This document shows positions 2,454-22,471 of a stretch of DNA of 32,358 nt, piece after piece; position 1 is the stretch's first letter, and every line of letters starts with the position of its first letter. Both the position numbers and the translations under genes were made by a program. The notes below the pieces were generated by a model, which searched no databases, had not been told where the DNA came from, and saw nothing but the letters and a program-made list of their open reading frames with translations. The stretch spans positions 1 to 32,358 of the forward strand of contig CABWKN010000024.1 of NCBI GenBank assembly GCA_902505605.1, in the 5' to 3' direction. This DNA is from Candidatus Guanabacterium sedimentis. GTDB lineage: Bacteria; Acidobacteriota; B3-B38; Guanabaribacteriales; B3-B38.

Positions 2454-2478
2454 CTATCATTATGGACGGAGGAGAGCG

Positions 2479-3501
2479 ATGTGTACCAGATGGGCATCCT
2501 TAATAGTTCTGTTGCTCCTGGTGGCAGGGCTAATGGCATCCTTCGCCTGGGCAATTCATGAAAAGCCTCGGGGCGATAAAGAGAAAACACCCGACCTTAT
2601 CATCTTATACACCGGCAATGTCTCCGGTTACATAGAGCCCTGCGGGTGAAAAATTCCCAAGGGAGGGTTAGCCCGGCGGGCTAATTATATAAAGCAGGTA
2701 GCCAGCCAATTCCCTGATGTGCCGCGGCTGTTAGTCGATGCCGGCAACTTCAGCTGGCTGAACAGCGAAATGAGCAGGATAAAGACCCGCTACCTGATTC
2801 AGGGGATGAACTATATGCAGGTGGAGGTCGCCAACCTGGGATGGAACGAGCTGGGGCGCGACATCGCATATTTCCGCGAGATGCAGCAGGAAGTCCAATT
2901 CCCCTTTATCAGCGCCAACATCCTAACCAGCGACTCCTCCGCCCCCCTGGTGAGCCCCTCCATTATTAAGGAGCTTTCCTTGCCATCTCACGAAAACGCC
3001 CCCGGCAGAGAGATAAAAGTGGGCATCATGGGCTTGTGTGCCGATACGGAACGATTTCATCTCCCCCCCACTCTCTTACCCCAGGCCGAAATCCTCCCCC
3101 CAGAGAAGGCTATCTCCCAAGCTCTGGGCGAACTCAAGAAAAACTGCCATCTGATAATACTCTTAGCCGCCCTCTCTCTGGAAGAAGCCCGCGTGCTCTG
3201 CCGTGACCACCAGCAGATTGACATTGTGCTGGGAGCCTTCGCGGGCGCTTCCACCCCGTCCCCTTGGAGGGAAGGTAACACCATCATCTGCTATGGCGGT
3301 AAAGATGGCGAGGATATCGGCGAGTTGAGGCTGTTTTTAGACGAAGAGCTGAAAATCAACAGCTACAACTCCCGCCTGGTCCCCTTACTGGAAAATGTAG
3401 GTGAAGACAAGCAGATGAAGCAACTGATGGAGGATGCCAACAAGGAGATCTCCGAACACATCAAAAAAGCCGTTAATCCACCAAAAAAGAAGATAAAATA
3501 A
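2479..3501 (+). CDS. secreted selenoprotein, 5'-nucleotidase/metallophosphatase-like fold with CG-Sec motif (UGA at 2647-2649)
   Basis: Read straight through, the frame from ATG 2479 (GGAGG just upstream) to TAA 3501 encodes 340 residues with one internal TGA at codon 57. A conventional caller would start at 2719 and lose 80 residues, including the signal peptide (residues 1-25, ending AWA). The TGA sits in EPCG-U-KIPKGGLARR. This matches the EPCGC...GGLARR motif of secreted UshA/5'-nucleotidase-like proteins, with Sec replacing the second Cys. A GC-rich hairpin follows the UGA, and selB is in the same window. The fold resembles the 5'-nucleotidase N-domain, but the metal ligands look lost: TND-x-H is TGN-V-S (45-49), the D of DAGD is N, GNHE is GWNE, and no GHxH is seen. 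A periplasmic thiol/selenol redox role through C55-G-U57 is an inference. The gene is convergent with tatC. Confidence 0.85.
2668..2684 (+). promoter_or_regulatory. candidate bacterial SECIS hairpin
   Basis: TTAGCCC (2668-2674) pairs perfectly with GGGCTAA (2678-2684) around a GGC loop. Two further G-U pairs can extend the stem at the base. The loop begins 25 bases after the UGA (2647-2649), within the spacing usual for bacterial SECIS elements, and it starts with G residues, which SelB-type recognition prefers. The hairpin lies entirely inside the coding sequence. Confidence 0.6.
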
Positions 3502-3516: not shown

Positions 3517-4302
3517 TTATTCCTCAGAACTCTCTTCCTCGTCCTCTTCCTCCTCTTCTGCTTCCCGCTTCTTGCCGAAGACTATGGCGATAAGAATCCC
3601 CAGGCAATAAAGCCCAATCATGGGCACGGCAAAGGTGCTCTGGGTAACCACATCCGGGGTGGGGGTGATAATCGCCGAGATGATGAAGCATATTAACACC
3701 GCATACTTCAAATTCTTGATTAAAAATCGCGGCGTAACCAGCCCCAGCCGGGCGAGGAAGAAGATGAGAATAGGGAGCTCAAACACCAGCCCGAGCCCAA
3801 GAAGGATTTTGGAAGCCATGGAGAGATATTCCCTGATGGTGATGATGGGACGGAATGGCTCTCCCCAGCCCAGCAGAAATCGGCACACCATAGGGAAAGC
3901 TACATAGTAGCCGAACACACCTCCGCCAATGAAGAAGAGGGAGGCGAAGATGATGAAAGGGAAGGCGTATTTTTTCTCCTTTTTGTAGAGTCCGGGCGAT
4001 ATAAACAGCCACAACTGACCAATCACCACCGGCGCCGCCAGAAAGATTCCCGCCAGAAAAGCGACTTTCATATAGAGGAAGAAGGGGTCAATCAAGGAGG
4101 TAAAAGCTAACTTCTTATCCTCGGGAGGGAGGTATTCTATTACCGGGCGGGCTAAAAAAAGGTAAATATCTTTGGAAAAGAACCAGCAGATGAGGAATCC
4201 AACCAGGATGGCAATAATGGATATGAACAACCGCTTCCGCAATTCATCCAGATGCTCGAGAAACGACATCTTTCTGAACGCGGCTTCATTCTTCTTCATC
4301 AA
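3517..4302 (-). CDS. tatC: Sec-independent translocase subunit TatC
   Basis: A 261-residue integral membrane protein that forms the receptor core of the twin-arginine translocase. It opens with the TatC signature [14 protein letters not shown] (residues 13-26). Six hydrophobic segments follow, and the protein ends in an acidic Glu/Asp-rich cytoplasmic tail. Length and motif order are normal for the family. Its start overlaps the stop of the upstream tatB-like gene by four bases (ATGA), so the two are almost certainly translationally coupled and transcribed from the promoter at 4588-4616. It converges on the selenoprotein gene with only about 15 bases between the stops, and no obvious terminator is seen there. 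Confidence 0.97.
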
Positions 4303-4670: not shown

Positions 4671-5948
4671 TTAATTGAAGCAGGAAGGGTATACCCTCTT
4701 TTTCTTCTTTCGGCGTTGATAGCTTTTGGCTAATTCCATGAATATCCCCATATCGCGGTCGAGGTTGGATTGGGTACCGTCAAAATAGAAGATGCGAATG
4801 GGGATACCATCGTGGTCGCGGCTGAGGTTGGGATAGATGGCTTCACAGGTTATCCCGTTCATGCAAGTGAAAGGTGAGATATCCACTATTCCATCAGCCC
4901 CCTTCTCATACACATAGATAGCCTTACCGGCGCTGAGCACCATCTCCCCCAGGGAGCCCCGGGGCGGGAGATAGCGCTCGCTGTAATTCAAAACCACCTC
5001 GATGTGCTCGGGCTCCTCGTAGCCCCGCAAATCCTCGTGGAAGGGCTCCAGCAGGGCGTGCTCGTCCTGCTTCTGGATGTAGTTCTTCAGCCTGGCTCCC
5101 AGCATCTCCAGGGAGACCTTTTTCCCCTTGCGGATGATGTTCTTTACCTGGTCCCAGTTGGTGTACCATATCCACTCCGATACATCGGAGAGCCACGCCT
5201 CTCCACCCTGCTCCTCAATGATTCTTATCAACTCGTCGTTGCTGAAGCGGTTGAGGCGGCAGAATATCTCCCCCACCACCCCGATGAGCGGACGGCTCTT
5301 GTCGTAGCGGGCGGGTATGCTACGGAATTTTCCACGAGCTTCGGTCATGGCATCCACCAACTGAGCCAGCCTCTCCTTGTGCTTGACTCCCTTTCTCTCC
5401 AGCACCCGGCAAATGGAATTAAGCGACTCCTCATAGACCTGGTCGGTATCCCCCTTGTGGAGCTCATAGGGGCGGGTTCTCAGCAGCATCTTCCTCAGAA
5501 TGTCGGCACACACCAGCGCCCTCCAGCCGGTGCGCATCAGCTCGGCACCCGCCTCCTTTCCCACCTCATCATAGCTGTTATCACTGGTAGGGGAGACGAC
5601 AATCGCCTCCTGGTAGCCAAAGTCCCTCAGCAGCCGCTTCATATAGGTGGCATACTGACCAAATCGGCAGGGACCACCGGCGGTGGGCATGAAGAAGGCG
5701 GTCTTCCCGGGGACGAAATCCTTGCTCCTCATCACATGCAAGAACTCTCCCAGGGTAACCTGCTGGGGATAGCACTCGTCCCCCGAGGTATAATGCTTGG
5801 CCAGCTCCAGAGTGCGCTTGCTCGACTCGGGTGACAGCTGCCCGTTTATCCCCACCGAGCGCGTTGCGGCGGCGAAGGCCTTGGCTCCCCCGTAAGTCAT
5901 CCGCGGAATATAGAGTGTTCTCCCTTTCAGTTCGGGCGCTACTCCCAT
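4671..5948 (-). CDS. acyl-CoA dehydratase activase-related protein (DUF2229/HgdB-like)
   Basis: About 425 residues related to the C-terminal part of the large 2-hydroxyacyl-CoA dehydratase activase-like proteins. Visible features are LKGRTLYIPRMTYGGAKAF near the N-terminus, then Cys-containing motifs typical of iron-sulfur HgdB-like folds: SGDECYPQQVTLGEF, TAGGPCRFGQ and FTCMNGITCEAI. The protein ends in a Lys/Arg-rich segment. I chose ATG 5948 because GGAGGG precedes it by five bases; an upstream in-frame ATG at 5963 is possible. The gene overlaps the stop of the 1020-residue activase, so the two are translationally coupled. In many anaerobes these parts occur as one polypeptide of roughly 1,400 residues; here they are separate genes. 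The exact substrate is unknown. A role in ATP-driven low-potential electron transfer to an acyl-CoA dehydratase or reductase is inferred from the family. Confidence 0.85.
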   Translation of the reverse strand: MGVAPELKGRTLYIPRMTYGGAKAFAAATRSVGINGQLSPESSKRTLELAKHYTSGDECYPQQVTLGEFLHVMRSKDFVPGKTAFFMPTAGGPCRFGQYATYMKRLLRDFGYQEAIVVSPTSDNSYDEVGKEAGAELMRTGWRALVCADILRKMLLRTRPYELHKGDTDQVYEESLNSICRVLERKGVKHKERLAQLVDAMTEARGKFRSIPARYDKSRPLIGVVGEIFCRLNRFSNDELIRIIEEQGGEAWLSDVSEWIWYTNWDQVKNIIRKGKKVSLEMLGARLKNYIQKQDEHALLEPFHEDLRGYEEPEHIEVVLNYSERYLPPRGSLGEMVLSAGKAIYVYEKGADGIVDISPFTCMNGITCEAIYPNLSRDHDGIPIRIFYFDGTQSNLDRDMGIFMELAKSYQRRKKKKRVYPSCFN

Positions 5949-8900
5949 TTTTCCCTCCACCATCTTAAAATACCCTTGCTGTCCAGATAGGCTTCGCAGC
6001 GTGTAAGAATGCCGGCATCGTTGCTGTGGCAGTCAAACTGCAGGCAGAGGAAGGGGCGCTGCGAGGCATCCACCACATAGTGTTTCACATAGGAGTCAGG
6101 ACCGCACTTGAAGTTGGTGATATAGATGATATGCAGGTAGGGAAGGTCACGGATGAACTTGGCGGTAGCCAGTATCTTGCGACCATAACTCCAGTACATA
6201 TTGTCATTAATGTCGTCAATGTCTATTTCCTCTATGGGAAGGAAGTCCATGGGGATGACATTGACCCCATAATAGTCCCTCAGCTTTCCGCCGACATCCA
6301 GGTTGAGTCCCTTATCATTAATGTTATAAGGTCTGCCGACCAGCACAATCCCTTTCCTCCCCTCCGATTCCAGCTTAGCCAGCGCCTCCTTCCCCATCTC
6401 CAGCAACCTATGAGCAAAGATGTGTTGAGCCTCATACGCTTTATTCAGGGCGGCTTTCACCGCTGAGCTTCTTAGCTTAAACCGCTTCATCCACTGGAAC
6501 ATCTCTTGAAAGATATACTTCCTCCCCTCCCGGAAGCGGAGGGTGGGTATGATGAACTTTTCCCTGTATGGCTCAAAGGCTGGGGCATTGATTATCACAA
6601 AAGGCAGGGTCTGACCCCAATTGCAGACATACGACTCCACCCCCTTATCGCTGCATTCGGCGTTTATCTGATTGGGGAGGAATATATAATCGACCCCTGC
6701 CTCCAGAAGATTCTTCACATGCCCGTGAGTCACCTGAACCGGGAAGCACGGCTCGGCTACGATGGTGTCCAGCCCATCGTTGACTGCTTTGCGGGTGGTG
6801 ACCTCGGAGAGATGGACCCTGAAGCCAAGCTCCTGGAAGAAGGTGTTCCAGAAGGGGAAGTGCTCGTAGAAATACATGCCTCGGGGAATCCCTATGCGGG
6901 GTCCATCCCCTGTATCAGGGTCGTATCCCTCGAACAGGAGCTGGTCCCTGAGAGAGAGGAGGTCGGGGATAACCGGCTTGGTCTCCACCACCGCCCGCTT
7001 GCGGAACATCTCGGAGCACTTATCACCCCAGTAGGTTCGCTCACCCTCCACCTTGAACATCTGGATGTTGCAGTAGTTGGTGCATGCCTTGCAGGTGAAC
7101 TCCTTCAGCTGGTAGTCTATCTGATGGAGGTCATAGCCCCGGAATTTGGTCTTCTCCCCGGTCAGGGACATCTTCTCCTTCACCAGCAGGGCTACCCCTA
7201 TGGCTCCCAGTATCCCATTGTAAGGAGGGACGATGATCTTCTTGTCCAGCACCTTGGAAAAGGCAGCCGCCACCGAATCGTTGTAAGCAGTCCCTCCCTG
7301 GAAGAAAATCACATTCCCTATCTTCCTCTCGCGCACAACCCGATTGAGGTAGTTATAGACCACCGAGTAAGCTAAGCCGGCGATCAGGTCGTCCGTGGCG
7401 GCTCCCCTCTGCTGGTAGGAGGTGACATCCATTTCCATAAACACCGTGCACCGTTCTCCCAGCTTGATAGGCGCAGGGGAACCGAGGGCTCGCCTGGCGA
7501 ACTCGCCAATAATGTTCACCTCAAGCTCTTCCGAACGTTCCTCAAGGAAGGAGCCGGTCCCCGCGGCACAGGCTTCGTTCATGGTGAAATCGACTACTAT
7601 TTCATCCTCCAGACTGATGAACTTGGAGTCCTGCCCCCCGACCTCAAAAATGGTATCCACCTGCAGGTCGAGCATCTTCTTACCGATGAAGCTGGCTCCG
7701 GTCTTATGCGCGGTTATCTCGTCGTTGATGGTGTCTGCCCCCACCAGCTTGCCGATAAGCTCCCGCCCCGAGCCGGTAGTGCTCACCCCACAGATCTCTA
7801 TCTTATCTCCTATCTCCTTCTGTATCCGCTGCAGCTCGCGATGTACTACCTCGATGGGACGAGCTTCGGTCTTGACATAGATATCCTTGATGACCTCGCC
7901 TTCCTCATCAATGACCGCCAGATTGGTGCTTACAGAGCCCACATCAATCCCCAGATAAGCCTTAACAGGAAGTTGCTTGCCGGCAAAACTGAAAGGCTTC
8001 ACCCTATCCCTTAGCAGTATCACCTTCTCCATAGAGAGGGGCTCACTGGTGGGGAAACTCATCTCCGGACTCTCCACCCCTTTGTGCAGACGGAATTGCT
8101 TACCCTTTTGCTGCACCTCCCTCTTTTCCAGCAGCGCCGCACCGATAGCCCCTAACCAGGCGTAATAAGGTGGTATAAAAAGACTCTCTTTTTCCATCCC
8201 CAGTAGCTCTTCCATGGCCGCCACCACCCCGGTGTTTGCAGCTACTCCACCTACAAAGGCAACCGGGGGAACCACTTTTTTGTTCTTCACCACCGCGCTT
8301 CTGAAATTGCGAGCCACCGCCTCACACAAACCCCTGAGCACTTCGGGAGGGGTGTAGCCCTTCTGCTGGGCGTGAATCATATCTGACTTGGCAAAAACAG
8401 AGCAGCGACCCGCTATCTTCGCCGCCTTCTCGGCAGTCTTGACAATATCGCCTACCTCTTCAATCTTATAGAGCAACCTTGATGCCTGCTGGTCTATGAA
8501 GGAGCCGGTTCCTGCTGCACAGTCCCCGTTGGTCTCATAATCTACAATCTCCAGCGCCCCTGTATCCTCATTGGGCTCCAGCCTGATATACTTGGAGCAG
8601 ACTCCGCCCATCTCAAAGATGGTGCGCACCTCCGGATAGAGAAAGCCAGTTCCCAAGGCGATGGCTTTGAACTCGTTCTCCACTCTCCCTTTCAGGATCT
8701 CGGCTATCACTCTCCCGCCAGAGCCGGTGATACGCAGACCCTCAATCTTCTCCTGGGGAATGAACTGCAGAATTTCTTTTAACAGCTCCCGAGCCGCATG
8801 AATCGGCTGACCCTTTATCCTCCGATACCTGGAAACCAGCAATGGTTGAGAATCTCCCCCGGGTCTGTGACCATCACCAAAAGCGATAAAGTTCCCTCCT

Positions 8901-9001
8901 CGCCTGGCAAAATCACGCAACAGAGACGCATCGGAGGGGTCGCCCAGAGCAGATAACTTAATGCTTACCGAACCGATGTCCAGACCTAAAGCAACTCCCA
9001 T
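5939..9001 (-). CDS. double-domain 2-hydroxyacyl-CoA dehydratase/benzoyl-CoA reductase activase (BadF/HgdC family)
   Basis: A 1020-residue protein with two tandem ASKHA ATPase domains (about 1-295 and 345-605), followed by a DUF2229-type region. Each ATPase copy carries the phosphate loop (GLDIGSVS, residues 6-13; GIDVGSVS, 351-358). Each also has both conserved Cys that in HgdC hold a 4Fe-4S cluster at the dimer interface: CAAGTGSF at 161 and 478, and GRC/ERC at 200 and 518. The duplication would build an internal pseudo-dimer. A further Cys group (637, 640, 644, 662) begins the C-terminal region, suggesting a second cluster. The family uses ATP hydrolysis to fire low-potential electrons into 2-hydroxyacyl-CoA dehydratases or aryl-CoA reductases; no such partner is in the window. 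The start is supported by AAGAGG before ATG 9001, and a sigma-54 promoter lies immediately upstream. Confidence 0.93.
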   Translation of the reverse strand: MGVALGLDIGSVSIKLSALGDPSDASLLRDFARRGGNFIAFGDGHRPGGDSQPLLVSRYRRIKGQPIHAARELLKEILQFIPQEKIEGLRITGSGGRVIAEILKGRVENEFKAIALGTGFLYPEVRTIFEMGGVCSKYIRLEPNEDTGALEIVDYETNGDCAAGTGSFIDQQASRLLYKIEEVGDIVKTAEKAAKIAGRCSVFAKSDMIHAQQKGYTPPEVLRGLCEAVARNFRSAVVKNKKVVPPVAFVGGVAANTGVVAAMEELLGMEKESLFIPPYYAWLGAIGAALLEKREVQQKGKQFRLHKGVESPEMSFPTSEPLSMEKVILLRDRVKPFSFAGKQLPVKAYLGIDVGSVSTNLAVIDEEGEVIKDIYVKTEARPIEVVHRELQRIQKEIGDKIEICGVSTTGSGRELIGKLVGADTINDEITAHKTGASFIGKKMLDLQVDTIFEVGGQDSKFISLEDEIVVDFTMNEACAAGTGSFLEERSEELEVNIIGEFARRALGSPAPIKLGERCTVFMEMDVTSYQQRGAATDDLIAGLAYSVVYNYLNRVVRERKIGNVIFFQGGTAYNDSVAAAFSKVLDKKIIVPPYNGILGAIGVALLVKEKMSLTGEKTKFRGYDLHQIDYQLKEFTCKACTNYCNIQMFKVEGERTYWGDKCSEMFRKRAVVETKPVIPDLLSLRDQLLFEGYDPDTGDGPRIGIPRGMYFYEHFPFWNTFFQELGFRVHLSEVTTRKAVNDGLDTIVAEPCFPVQVTHGHVKNLLEAGVDYIFLPNQINAECSDKGVESYVCNWGQTLPFVIINAPAFEPYREKFIIPTLRFREGRKYIFQEMFQWMKRFKLRSSAVKAALNKAYEAQHIFAHRLLEMGKEALAKLESEGRKGIVLVGRPYNINDKGLNLDVGGKLRDYYGVNVIPMDFLPIEEIDIDDINDNMYWSYGRKILATAKFIRDLPYLHIIYITNFKCGPDSYVKHYVVDASQRPFLCLQFDCHSNDAGILTRCEAYLDSKGILRWWREKWE

Positions 9002-16086: not shown

Positions 16087-18024
16087 TTACTCCTTTCGGA
16101 TAATATCCCGTTCATCGCCCACCCTTCGAGTGACCTGCTCCCGGTCGAGATATTCCAGCAAAGGGATACCGTATTTCCTGGTGATTTTGAACCACTCTTT
16201 AAACTCCCCCACGGAAAATCTGGCATGGCTGGTGCCCTTCTGGCAGACGACCTTTTTAAGCTCATCGAGGGACTGGTGGTGAAAGATTAACTCTTCGGTC
16301 AACCTGACCAGAGTTCCCTCCTCTAACAGGAGGTGAAGGATTTTGCTTTTCAGGTTGGGGGTACCGGAAAGCTTCTGAGAAGCCTCCTCCCATAAGGGCG
16401 GTGTCAGACCGGCTTTTCGGTAGAAGCTTTCCATCTCCTCCTTCATCCTGTTTTCCCTGGGGGATAGGGTTATCTGATGCTCTGGAAGGTAGACTACCTC
16501 TTTCTCCGACATCACCCTCTGATCAGCCAGCAGATTATCCATCACCCACTTGAAGACGGAAAATGGAGCACGGCGGAGAAGCTTCTCCTGAAACTCCTTG
16601 TGAGGCATACCCTTTCTCAGAGGGTAGCTTTTGTGAAAGTCCTTGAGGAGTGAGATAATCGATTCCGACAACTCCTGTGCTACCTCAGCAGAAATTATCA
16701 GCAGCGGCTCCCTGGAGAGAGTGTGGATGAGCCCTTGTTTCTCTATTTCCTCAATAATGCCTTTTACCCTGTCAGGCTTCAGACCGGTCCGAGAGACAAT
16801 TTCCTTTACTCCTATCCCAGCCCCTCCCTTCTCGGTGGCGAAAACCGGTATGGACCGGCGGGGGTCAAGCTCTGTGAGGATTCTCAAAGCCCCCAGAACC
16901 TTCTCCGAATCCCTCTTTTTATGCTTGAGGGGGAGGATGTCTATTATCAGACCGCCGCCGATGGTGGTGATGGGGGAGTAGCTGCGAATGATGAATCGGT
17001 CGCCGGGAAGGGCGAAGGTCGGCTTCTCTAATCGGAGCTGAACCAGGGCTTCCTCCCCCGGAAGCAGCCTCTTTCCTTCCAGCAGATGAACCCGACACAT
17101 GATTTCTGCCGTGCCCAGATGAAACCTGACCCGGGCAAGGTGAAGAAGAGGTCTGGGGAAGGTGGGCAGCAGAGTCAATTGGGCATCAAACATGTGACCC
17201 GGGAGAAAGAGGTCTGGCAGGGTAAGGATGTCGCCTCTTTGCACCTCGAAGGTGCTTATCCCCTGGAGGTTGATGGCGGTTCTCTGCCCGGCAAAGGCCC
17301 GCTTTACCGGCTTATTAAAAACCTGCAGCCCCCGTATTCGCGCTCTCAACTTCGAAGGAAGGATTTCCACTGTTTCCTCCACACCGATCTCACCCGAGAA
17401 GAGGCTGCCGGTGACCACGGTGCCAAAGCCTCTCATTACAAATGACCTGTCCACCGGGAGACGGAAGATTCCGCTGGTATCTTTGGCTTCCACCTCTACG
17501 GCTACGCTCCGCAGCTCGGCAACCAGCTCCTCCAGCCCCTCGCCAGTTTTGGAGCTCACGGTGACAATGGGGGCATCCTCCATAAAGCTCCCTTTCAGCA
17601 GCTCGGCAACCTCCAGCCTCACCAGCTCCCTGAGTTCCTCCTCCACCAGGTCGCTCTTGGTTATGGCTACCAGACCTTTTTTCACGCGGAGGAGGCGGCA
17701 GATGTCAAAATGCTCACGCGTCTGGGGCATGACCGATTCGTTGGCGGCGACTACCAGGAGCACCAGGTCAATCCCCGCGGCACCGGCTAACATATTTTTC
17801 ACAAACCTCTCGTGTCCCGGGACATCCACAAATCCAACCCTCAAACCCTTGTCCAGCTCCAAGCTGGCGAAGCCGATATCAATAGTGATGCCCCGTTCCT
17901 TCTCCTCCTTCAGGCGGTCGGTATCCACTCCGGTGAGAGCCTTTATAAGCACGGTCTTGCCGTGGTCGATATGCCCGGCAGTGCCTACGATGATGTATTT
18001 GCCAGAAAGCTCCTCTTCAGCCAT
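16087..18024 (-). CDS. selB: selenocysteine-specific translation elongation factor SelB
   Basis: A 645-residue protein, normal for the family. The N-terminus is an EF-Tu-like GTPase: GHIDHGKT at 17-24, [23 protein letters not shown], and the guanine motif TKSD. Beta domains II-III follow, then four C-terminal winged-helix modules (about 380-645), the part that binds the SECIS hairpin. SelB delivers Sec-tRNA to UGA. The SelB-specific GFA...[14 protein letters not shown] region and the winged-helix extension separate it from ordinary EF-Tu. It starts 18 bases after the pgi stop and is probably the last gene of the deacetylase-pgi-selB run. selA, selC and selD are not in the window. Its presence supports reading the UGA at 2647 as selenocysteine. 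Confidence 0.97.
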
Positions 18025-21288: not shown

Positions 21289-22471
21289 ATGAGAGAGGCG
21301 GTTATTCTGAGTGCGGTACGGACTCCTGTGGGCAAATTCCTGGGGGGATTGAGCGCGGTTCCGGCTACCAAGCTGGGAGCCCAAGTGGTAAGGGAAGCGG
21401 TCAACAGAGCAGCGGTCAGCCCTGAACAGGTGGATGAGGTAATCATGGGCAATGTCGTCTCCGCAGGATTGGGACAAAACCCTGCCCGCCAGGCTGCACT
21501 CAATGGGGGGTTACCGCCATCGGTAGCGGCGCTCACCATCAATAAGGTCTGCGGCTCAGGGCTGAAGGCGGTGGTCCTTGCCGCCCAGGCAATCGCCCTG
21601 GGTGATATGGAAATAGTGATTGCCGGGGGGGATGGAGAGCATGAGCAATGCCCCTTATCTCCTCCGCAAAGCCCGCCAGGGATATCGTATGGGTGACGGT
21701 GAACTGGTGGATTCCATGATATACGATGGGTTATGGTGTGCTTTTAATGACTTTCATATGGGCTATACCGGAGAGATAATTGCCGAAAAATACGGAATCA
21801 GCAGAGAGGAGCAAGACCGCTTCGCCCTCTCAAGCCATCACAAAGCAATCGCCGCTATCGATGCGAAAAAGTTTGAGCGGGAGATACTCCCTGTTGAGAT
21901 ACCGCAGAGAAAGGCGGAGCCCATCCTGTTTACCACCGATGAAGCCCCCCGGCGGGATACCTCGCTGGAAGCCATGGCTAATCTCCGCCCTGTATTCAAA
22001 GAAGGGGGAACCGTCACCGCGGGCAACGCCCCCGGAGTGAACGACGCAGCAGCCGCGGTAGTGATAACCTCGCAGGAGAAGGCTGAAGCCCTGGGAGTGA
22101 AGCCCCTGGCTCGGATTGTGGGCTATACGGTCAGTGGAATTGAGCCAGAGCTGGTGATGATGGCACCGGTCGAAGCGGTGGAGAAGCTCTTCCAGCGAAC
22201 GGGCTGGAGCAAGGAGGAAGTGGAGCTTTTCGAATTAAACGAGGCCTTCTCCGTTCAGGCAATCGCCGTCATCAGGGAGCTGGGGCTTGATGCGGCAAAG
22301 GTAAACATCCACGGGGGAGCGGTCGCCTTAGGGCACCCCATAGGGGCTACCGGAGCCCGAATACTCATTACTCTCATCTATGCCATGGAAGAGAGAAAGG
22401 CTACCAGGGGGGTAGCTGCCCTCTGTCTCGGAGGAGGTAATGCGGTGGCCATGGCAGTGGAAAGGCTTTAA
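21289..22471 (+). pseudogene. acetyl-CoA acetyltransferase (thiolase), +1 frameshift in a G7 tract
   Basis: The two reading frames together encode a normal-length thiolase of about 394 residues that condenses or cleaves acetoacetyl-CoA. The first frame (from 21289) contains [18 protein letters not shown] and the nucleophile segment [11 protein letters not shown]. It runs out of phase at seven consecutive G bases (21625-21631). The second frame continues at once with [13 protein letters not shown] and carries NEAFS, the catalytic [10 protein letters not shown] His segment and the second catalytic Cys [10 protein letters not shown], ending at 22471. Removing one G restores the family sequence AGGMESMSN exactly. 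All catalytic residues are intact, so this is either a sequencing/assembly indel, a slippage-prone phase-variable tract or a very recent mutation. It is followed at 60 bases by hbd and has a near-perfect promoter. Confidence 0.88.

Follow-up and report, generated by a model that had tools for sequence, protein, structure and literature searches.

A predicted UshA-like CxU selenoprotein gene whose candidate SECIS hairpin overlaps a conserved peptide motif in Acidobacteriota

The window that we analyzed, a 32,358-nucleotide stretch of DNA from Candidatus Guanabacterium sedimentis (Acidobacteriota), almost certainly carries, judging from sequence comparisons, a true bacterial gene for a selenoprotein of the UshA-like (COG0737) CxU kind. 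The open frame encodes 340 residues and a final stop, and its single interruption is a TGA that forms codon 57 (Table 1). In the translated protein this codon lies in the context EPCG-U-KIPKGGLARR or, in a fuller form, LYTGNVSGYIEPCG-U-KIPKGGLARRANY. A preliminary description of this DNA had reported a single TGA in an otherwise open frame at exactly this motif, and translation of the frame confirmed it. The "341-codon frame" of that description is accurate as a codon count that includes the stop, whereas the protein itself has 340 residues.

The next in-frame start after ATG 2479 is GTG 2719 (codon 81), and inspection of the sequence revealed no good Shine-Dalgarno element before it. Because this is the next available start, the open reading frame in a mechanical list begins at GTG 2719 and omits 80 residues, the signal peptide among them, as had been anticipated for standard gene calling. 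Standard annotation removes the catalytic motif together with the signal peptide and would leave the gene listed as a truncated fragment of a nucleotidase.

Table 1. Features of the selenoprotein locus and of selB in the window
Feature	Coordinates	Strand	Basis or remarks
UshA-like selenoprotein gene (predicted)	2479..3501	+	340 residues, Sec57, TAA stop 3499-3501
Shine-Dalgarno region (GGAGGAG), strong, 5' of ATG 2479	2466..2478	+	Sequence
Predicted N-terminal signal peptide (MCTRWASLIVLLLLVAGLMASFAWA)	2479..2553	+	Basic N-terminus, hydrophobic core, AWA end
CxU redox motif (putative): Cys55 (TGC), Gly56, Sec57 (TGA)	2641..2649	+	Sequence and homologue alignment
TGA codon, predicted to be read as selenocysteine	2647..2649	+	Homologues
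Shortened ORF expected from ordinary calling, 260 aa, GTG start	2719..3501	+	Mechanical ORF list
Bacterial SECIS hairpin, 9-bp stem GGTTAGCCC/GGGCTAATT, two G-U pairs at base	2666..2686	+	Folding, covariation, model criteria
selB, selenocysteine-specific elongation factor	16087..18024	-	TIGR00475, 364.7 bits (cut-off 242.25); Pfam SelB-wing domains

Homologues were sought in 297 genomes of the phylum, 99 of which gave a match, and 84 genes were extracted. At the column corresponding to codon 57, these genes carry TGA (52 genes), Cys (26 genes) or something else (6 genes), the last being either ordinary nucleotidases that lack the CG motif or genes disrupted or altered at the motif (L077, L091). 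We defined the family as the 77 members with a CG[U/C] motif, which requires a Cys two residues before column 57, and this set comprises 52 Sec (TGA) forms and 25 Cys forms. The in-frame UGA of the window is therefore aligned with Cys or Sec in its homologues, the pattern sought in a selenoprotein gene, and the suggestion that the TGA falls on a conserved Cys position was borne out by this alignment. On a protein tree inferred with column 57 left out, parsimony requires at least 13 exchanges between Sec and Cys, and well-supported branches force 6 of these. Several genomes (G258, G050, G062, G131, and G009 with L065, L069 and L081) hold multiple paralogues with Sec and Cys forms together, and their presence side by side in one genome suggests a division of labor.

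The closest comparison comes from a sister metagenome-assembled genome, B3_B38 of candidate division B38 (L016/L018), which has the identical TGA and a protein that is 85% identical over all 340 residues. Within codons 39 to 56, directly 5' of the TGA, the two sequences show three synonymous and no non-synonymous differences, and there are no differences at all within codons 63 to 71, which contain the whole hairpin. Judged by these substitutions, the codons before the TGA are under purifying selection and, on the same comparative basis, the TGA is neither a chance occurrence nor an assembly error.

These comparisons bear on two simpler readings. The first holds that the TGA is a true stop, such that the locus is a pseudogene or yields only the 260-residue product from GTG 2719. 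Although the standard code does read TGA as a stop and the shorter frame does exist in the mechanical list, this reading is very unlikely, since 52 homologues across the phylum keep the TGA with Cys as the alternative, the codons upstream are under the selection just described, and the conserved core starts before the TGA while GTG 2719 lacks a good ribosome-binding site. The second holds that a Cys codon (TGC or TGT) was altered by a sequencing or assembly error. Base errors may exist in this window, where a frameshift splits a thiolase gene, but the TGA recurs in the separate sister genome and in 50 further homologues, each in a genome with SelA or SelB. An error at this codon is thus highly improbable and is refuted in practice.

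Furthermore, the machinery for selenocysteine insertion is present. The selB gene lies 12.6 kb from the selenoprotein gene, in agreement with the 13 kb given in the preliminary description, and the window's own genome (80.8% complete) also encodes selA (581.7 bits), a tRNA-Sec with anticodon TCA (selC; 71.9 bits) and selD (205.8 bits, truncated where its contig ends). All four genes expected alongside a selenoprotein gene, selA, selB, selC and selD, therefore occur in one genome, with the reservation that selD is incomplete. The preliminary description had named three findings that would count against it, namely reads with a Cys codon at this position, a genome without selA, selC and selD, and homologues with neither Cys nor Sec at the site; none of these was found.

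The same association extends across the phylum. Each of the 51 genomes that hold a TGA form encodes selA or selB, and selB is found in 49 of these 51 compared with 146 of the 246 other genomes (Fisher p 3e-8, for genomes that are phylogenetically non-independent). The two TGA-form genomes without selB have selA, and one without selA (G103) has selB; for another TGA-form genome, G130, the test covered selB alone, which is present. Both selA and selB are absent from G006, a 100% complete genome that represents the nearest lineage outside the genus, an order-level relative, and carries the Cys form. Its Cys-form gene adjoins tatC, as does the window gene (tatC at 3517-4302), and because of this shared neighbor the G006 gene is probably the positional ortholog of the window gene.

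A search of the window's genome for a formate dehydrogenase as a second selenoprotein gave weak matches only, none with a TGA; the presence of the machinery nevertheless suggests that Sec may be used elsewhere in this genome. Genome-wide reassignment of UGA, for example to Trp or Gly, has nothing in its favor beyond the open frame and can be regarded as vanishingly improbable. The aligned residue in motif-bearing family members is Cys rather than Trp or Gly, the Sec machinery is complete in kind, and TGA terminates 5 of the 18 genes inspected in the window. TGA hence serves as a normal stop at other places in the window, which argues for site-specific recoding and against a variant genetic code.

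Recoding in bacteria relies on a hairpin downstream of the UGA, for which a published model of bacterial SECIS elements specifies a loop of 3-9 nt, a stem of 4-16 bp, a spacing of 16-37 nt, a G at the first or second loop position and an energy of -7.5 kcal/mol or lower (PMC13188914). The hairpin in the window has a GGC loop at 2675-2677, 25 nt downstream of the TGA, and predicted energies of -10.3 kcal/mol for the hairpin alone and -14.5 kcal/mol for the region. It accordingly falls within the limits given there for loop size, stem, loop G, spacing and energy, and the SECIS check that the preliminary description had proposed came out in its favor. An Rfam search around the TGA returned a chance match only, with no family matched for this SECIS.

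Conservation provides the stronger evidence. When a strict shape was counted (at least seven consecutive pairs and a 3-base loop starting with G), 46 of the 52 Sec forms had the hairpin and 6 did not, compared with 1 of the 25 Cys forms (p 2e-13). Synonymous shuffles of the Sec forms led us to expect a mean of 4.9 hairpins, with a maximum of 13, against the 46 observed. Likewise, the covariation score in Sec forms was 0.492 versus 0.208 for shuffled sequences (0 of 500 shuffles), and the same columns in Cys forms paired no better than shuffles. The most telling pair, between the third bases of the Ala codon and of the second Arg codon in the group with GGLARR, involves a synonymous third position on either side, and the combinations are C-G (22 genes), A-U (4), G-C (3), U-A (3), U-G (1) and unpaired (3). 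Taken by itself, the hairpin has a modest z-score for whole-fold energy (-1.3 to -1.4), and its weight as evidence comes from its conservation instead.

The hairpin overlaps the coding sequence of a peptide motif that is itself conserved. GGLARR is nearly fixed among the Sec forms closest to the window protein, whereas the Cys forms have drifted to variants such as GGLDKR, GGLGRR and GGVDRR. In a clade of nine Sec forms (L055, L056, L058, L059, L061, L062, L064, L068, L074), the peptide QLGGLYKK takes its place, and these genes keep the CUCGG(C/A)GGG core of the hairpin, with a GGC or GGA loop 21 nt after the UGA, from different codons (CAG CTC GGC GGG CTG). Because the same core hairpin is built from other codons in this clade, part of the conservation of GGLARR reflects constraint on the RNA. 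One Cys form with a TGC codon (L084) retains a perfect 9-bp SECIS-like hairpin at the position seen in Sec forms, and this is probably a fossil of a recent change from Sec to Cys.

We then considered what the protein might do. The mature part, modeled with AlphaFold2 (pLDDT 89.5, pTM 0.90), matches 5'-nucleotidases and SoxB (3ivd, E 8e-22; SoxB 2wdc, E 1e-21), with TM-scores of 0.71-0.80 on the query against 5'-nucleotidase and SoxB structures. On the strength of this model, we assign the predicted fold with high confidence to the metallophosphatase domain of 5'-nucleotidases and SoxB. The metal ligands of the enzyme CD73 (D36, H38, D85, N117, H220 and H243) align with N47, S49, N90, W122, A231 and F254 of the window protein, so that none of the six is kept and the two-metal set (D, H, D, N, H, H) of a 5'-nucleotidase or metallophosphatase enzyme is missing. 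Ordinary nucleotidases of the same genome set keep nearly all six ligands in the same alignment; members of the CG[U/C] family keep at most four, and the NHE motif occurs in none of them. With the ligands replaced, phosphatase activity or any two-metal catalysis is unlikely. The earlier label "5'-nucleotidase-like" is consequently apt for the fold, as the structure matches indicate, and probably wrong for the activity.

From the complete loss of the six ligands we infer instead a periplasmic selenol/thiol redox protein, and we think it fairly probable that Cys55 and Sec57 have a redox role of this kind. A Sec-containing but active nucleotidase, phosphodiesterase or SoxB-like hydrolase, in which Sec acts as a metal ligand or structural residue, would fit the fold match to 5'-nucleotidases and SoxB and the 66-bit similarity to the SoxB profile. 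We regard such an enzyme as unlikely given the absence of all six ligands in the window protein, the ceiling of four in any family member, and the tetraheme domain carried by long relatives.

That domain is a recurrent feature of the family. At least 41 of the 77 members (31 Sec, 10 Cys) contain a minimum of three CxxCH heme motifs, in a set where some loci end early, and a C-terminal Cytochrome_C554 domain was present in all three long forms scanned. The window protein has no CxxCH, and no Cytochrome_C554 domain was found in the window's 81%-complete genome. The gene neighbors that recur near relatives are mostly housekeeping genes and yielded no redox partner.

The neighborhoods themselves can be described briefly. 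Glycine cleavage P-protein, Maf, RuvX and YceG recur near L106, L107, L108, L109 and L111, and TatC is the neighbor in G006 as in the window. The window also encodes a 1020-residue protein of the 2-hydroxyacyl-CoA dehydratase activase type (BcrAD_BadFG plus DUF2229) at 5939-9001 (-), followed by another DUF2229-like gene at 4671-5963. The split thiolase (acetyl-CoA acetyltransferase) gene lies at 21289-22471 (+) in two frames, with 21289-21696 matching Thiolase_N positions 2-111 and 21620-22471 continuing from position 110; the frameshift is either real or derived from the assembly.

In the explanation that we favor, SelB and tRNA-Sec would insert selenocysteine at UGA codon 57 under the direction of a SECIS hairpin, which the next codons form while they also encode the conserved GGLARRAN peptide. 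The predicted signal peptide would probably lead to export of the protein. The Cys55-Gly-Sec57 motif could then form a selenol/thiol pair of the selenenylsulfide-dithiol type near the former metal cleft, a location judged from sequence order, and carry out redox chemistry in the cell envelope. In long relatives, electrons would move to or from the hemes of the fused tetraheme cytochrome c, and since the window protein is missing this domain, a separate partner would have to take on the task there. We give even chances to a broader proposal, in which a large and widespread metal-less branch of the 5'-nucleotidase/SoxB proteins was rebuilt around Cys-Gly-Sec, often with a tetraheme fusion, producing a selenium-dependent envelope oxidoreductase from a dead hydrolase while the SECIS shaped a highly conserved peptide motif.

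For the UshA-like family, the comparison yields a function that can be tested, namely redox chemistry in place of phosphatase activity. The window gene (Sec) and its G006 counterpart (Cys) make a clean ortholog pair from neighboring lineages for measuring the contribution of selenium. In addition, the RNA signal and the peptide motif are separable in this family because one clade keeps the hairpin with different amino acids.

UshA-like COG0737 selenoproteins with a CxU motif were reported from Global Ocean Sampling data and have been catalogued since 2008 (PMC2398784), and the family is listed in reviews (PMC9312934, PMC13188914). The window protein resembles these catalogued proteins in its COG0737-like character, in its Cys-x-Sec motif and in the coexistence of Sec and Cys versions (PMC2398784, PMC13188914). 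The passages on the family in these two sources give the family and the motif, and they do not discuss a lost metal site, heme fusion or an overlap of hairpin and peptide. In a limited literature search, neither the dead metal site nor the hairpin/peptide overlap turned up in any earlier text, and the same holds for the heme fusion and for the repeated exchange of Sec and Cys.

Profile matches, fold and motif agree in giving the window protein a COG0737-type domain with a CxU motif (C55-G-U57). Its best profile match is NCBIfam NF041198, UshA_like_PCGU (156.5 bits over residues 20-289), with which it has the PCGU motif in common. The model spans 519 positions and includes a C-terminal heme part (approximately 354-517) that the window protein lacks; full-length tetraheme relatives score 263-279 bits, and because the window protein falls short of the curated cut-off of 275 bits we do not file it in NF041198 as curated. 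It also weakly matches NF049981, UshA-like (seleno)protein family 2, in the N-terminal part with 49.2 bits, below the cut-off of 140, and differs from that family in having CxU rather than the CxxU given for it in PMC13188914. The SoxB thiosulfohydrolase model TIGR04486 scores 66 bits against a cut-off of 550. Compared with the 5'-nucleotidases (UshA, CD73, 3ivd) and SoxB, the window protein has the same metallophosphatase fold but lacks the metal ligands and the C-terminal substrate domain and has gained CxU. The preliminary description called the gene an unannotated selenoprotein, which holds for standard gene calling but not for the kind, given the 2008 catalogue and the NCBIfam models. It is a sound new member of an already catalogued selenoprotein family and not a new kind.
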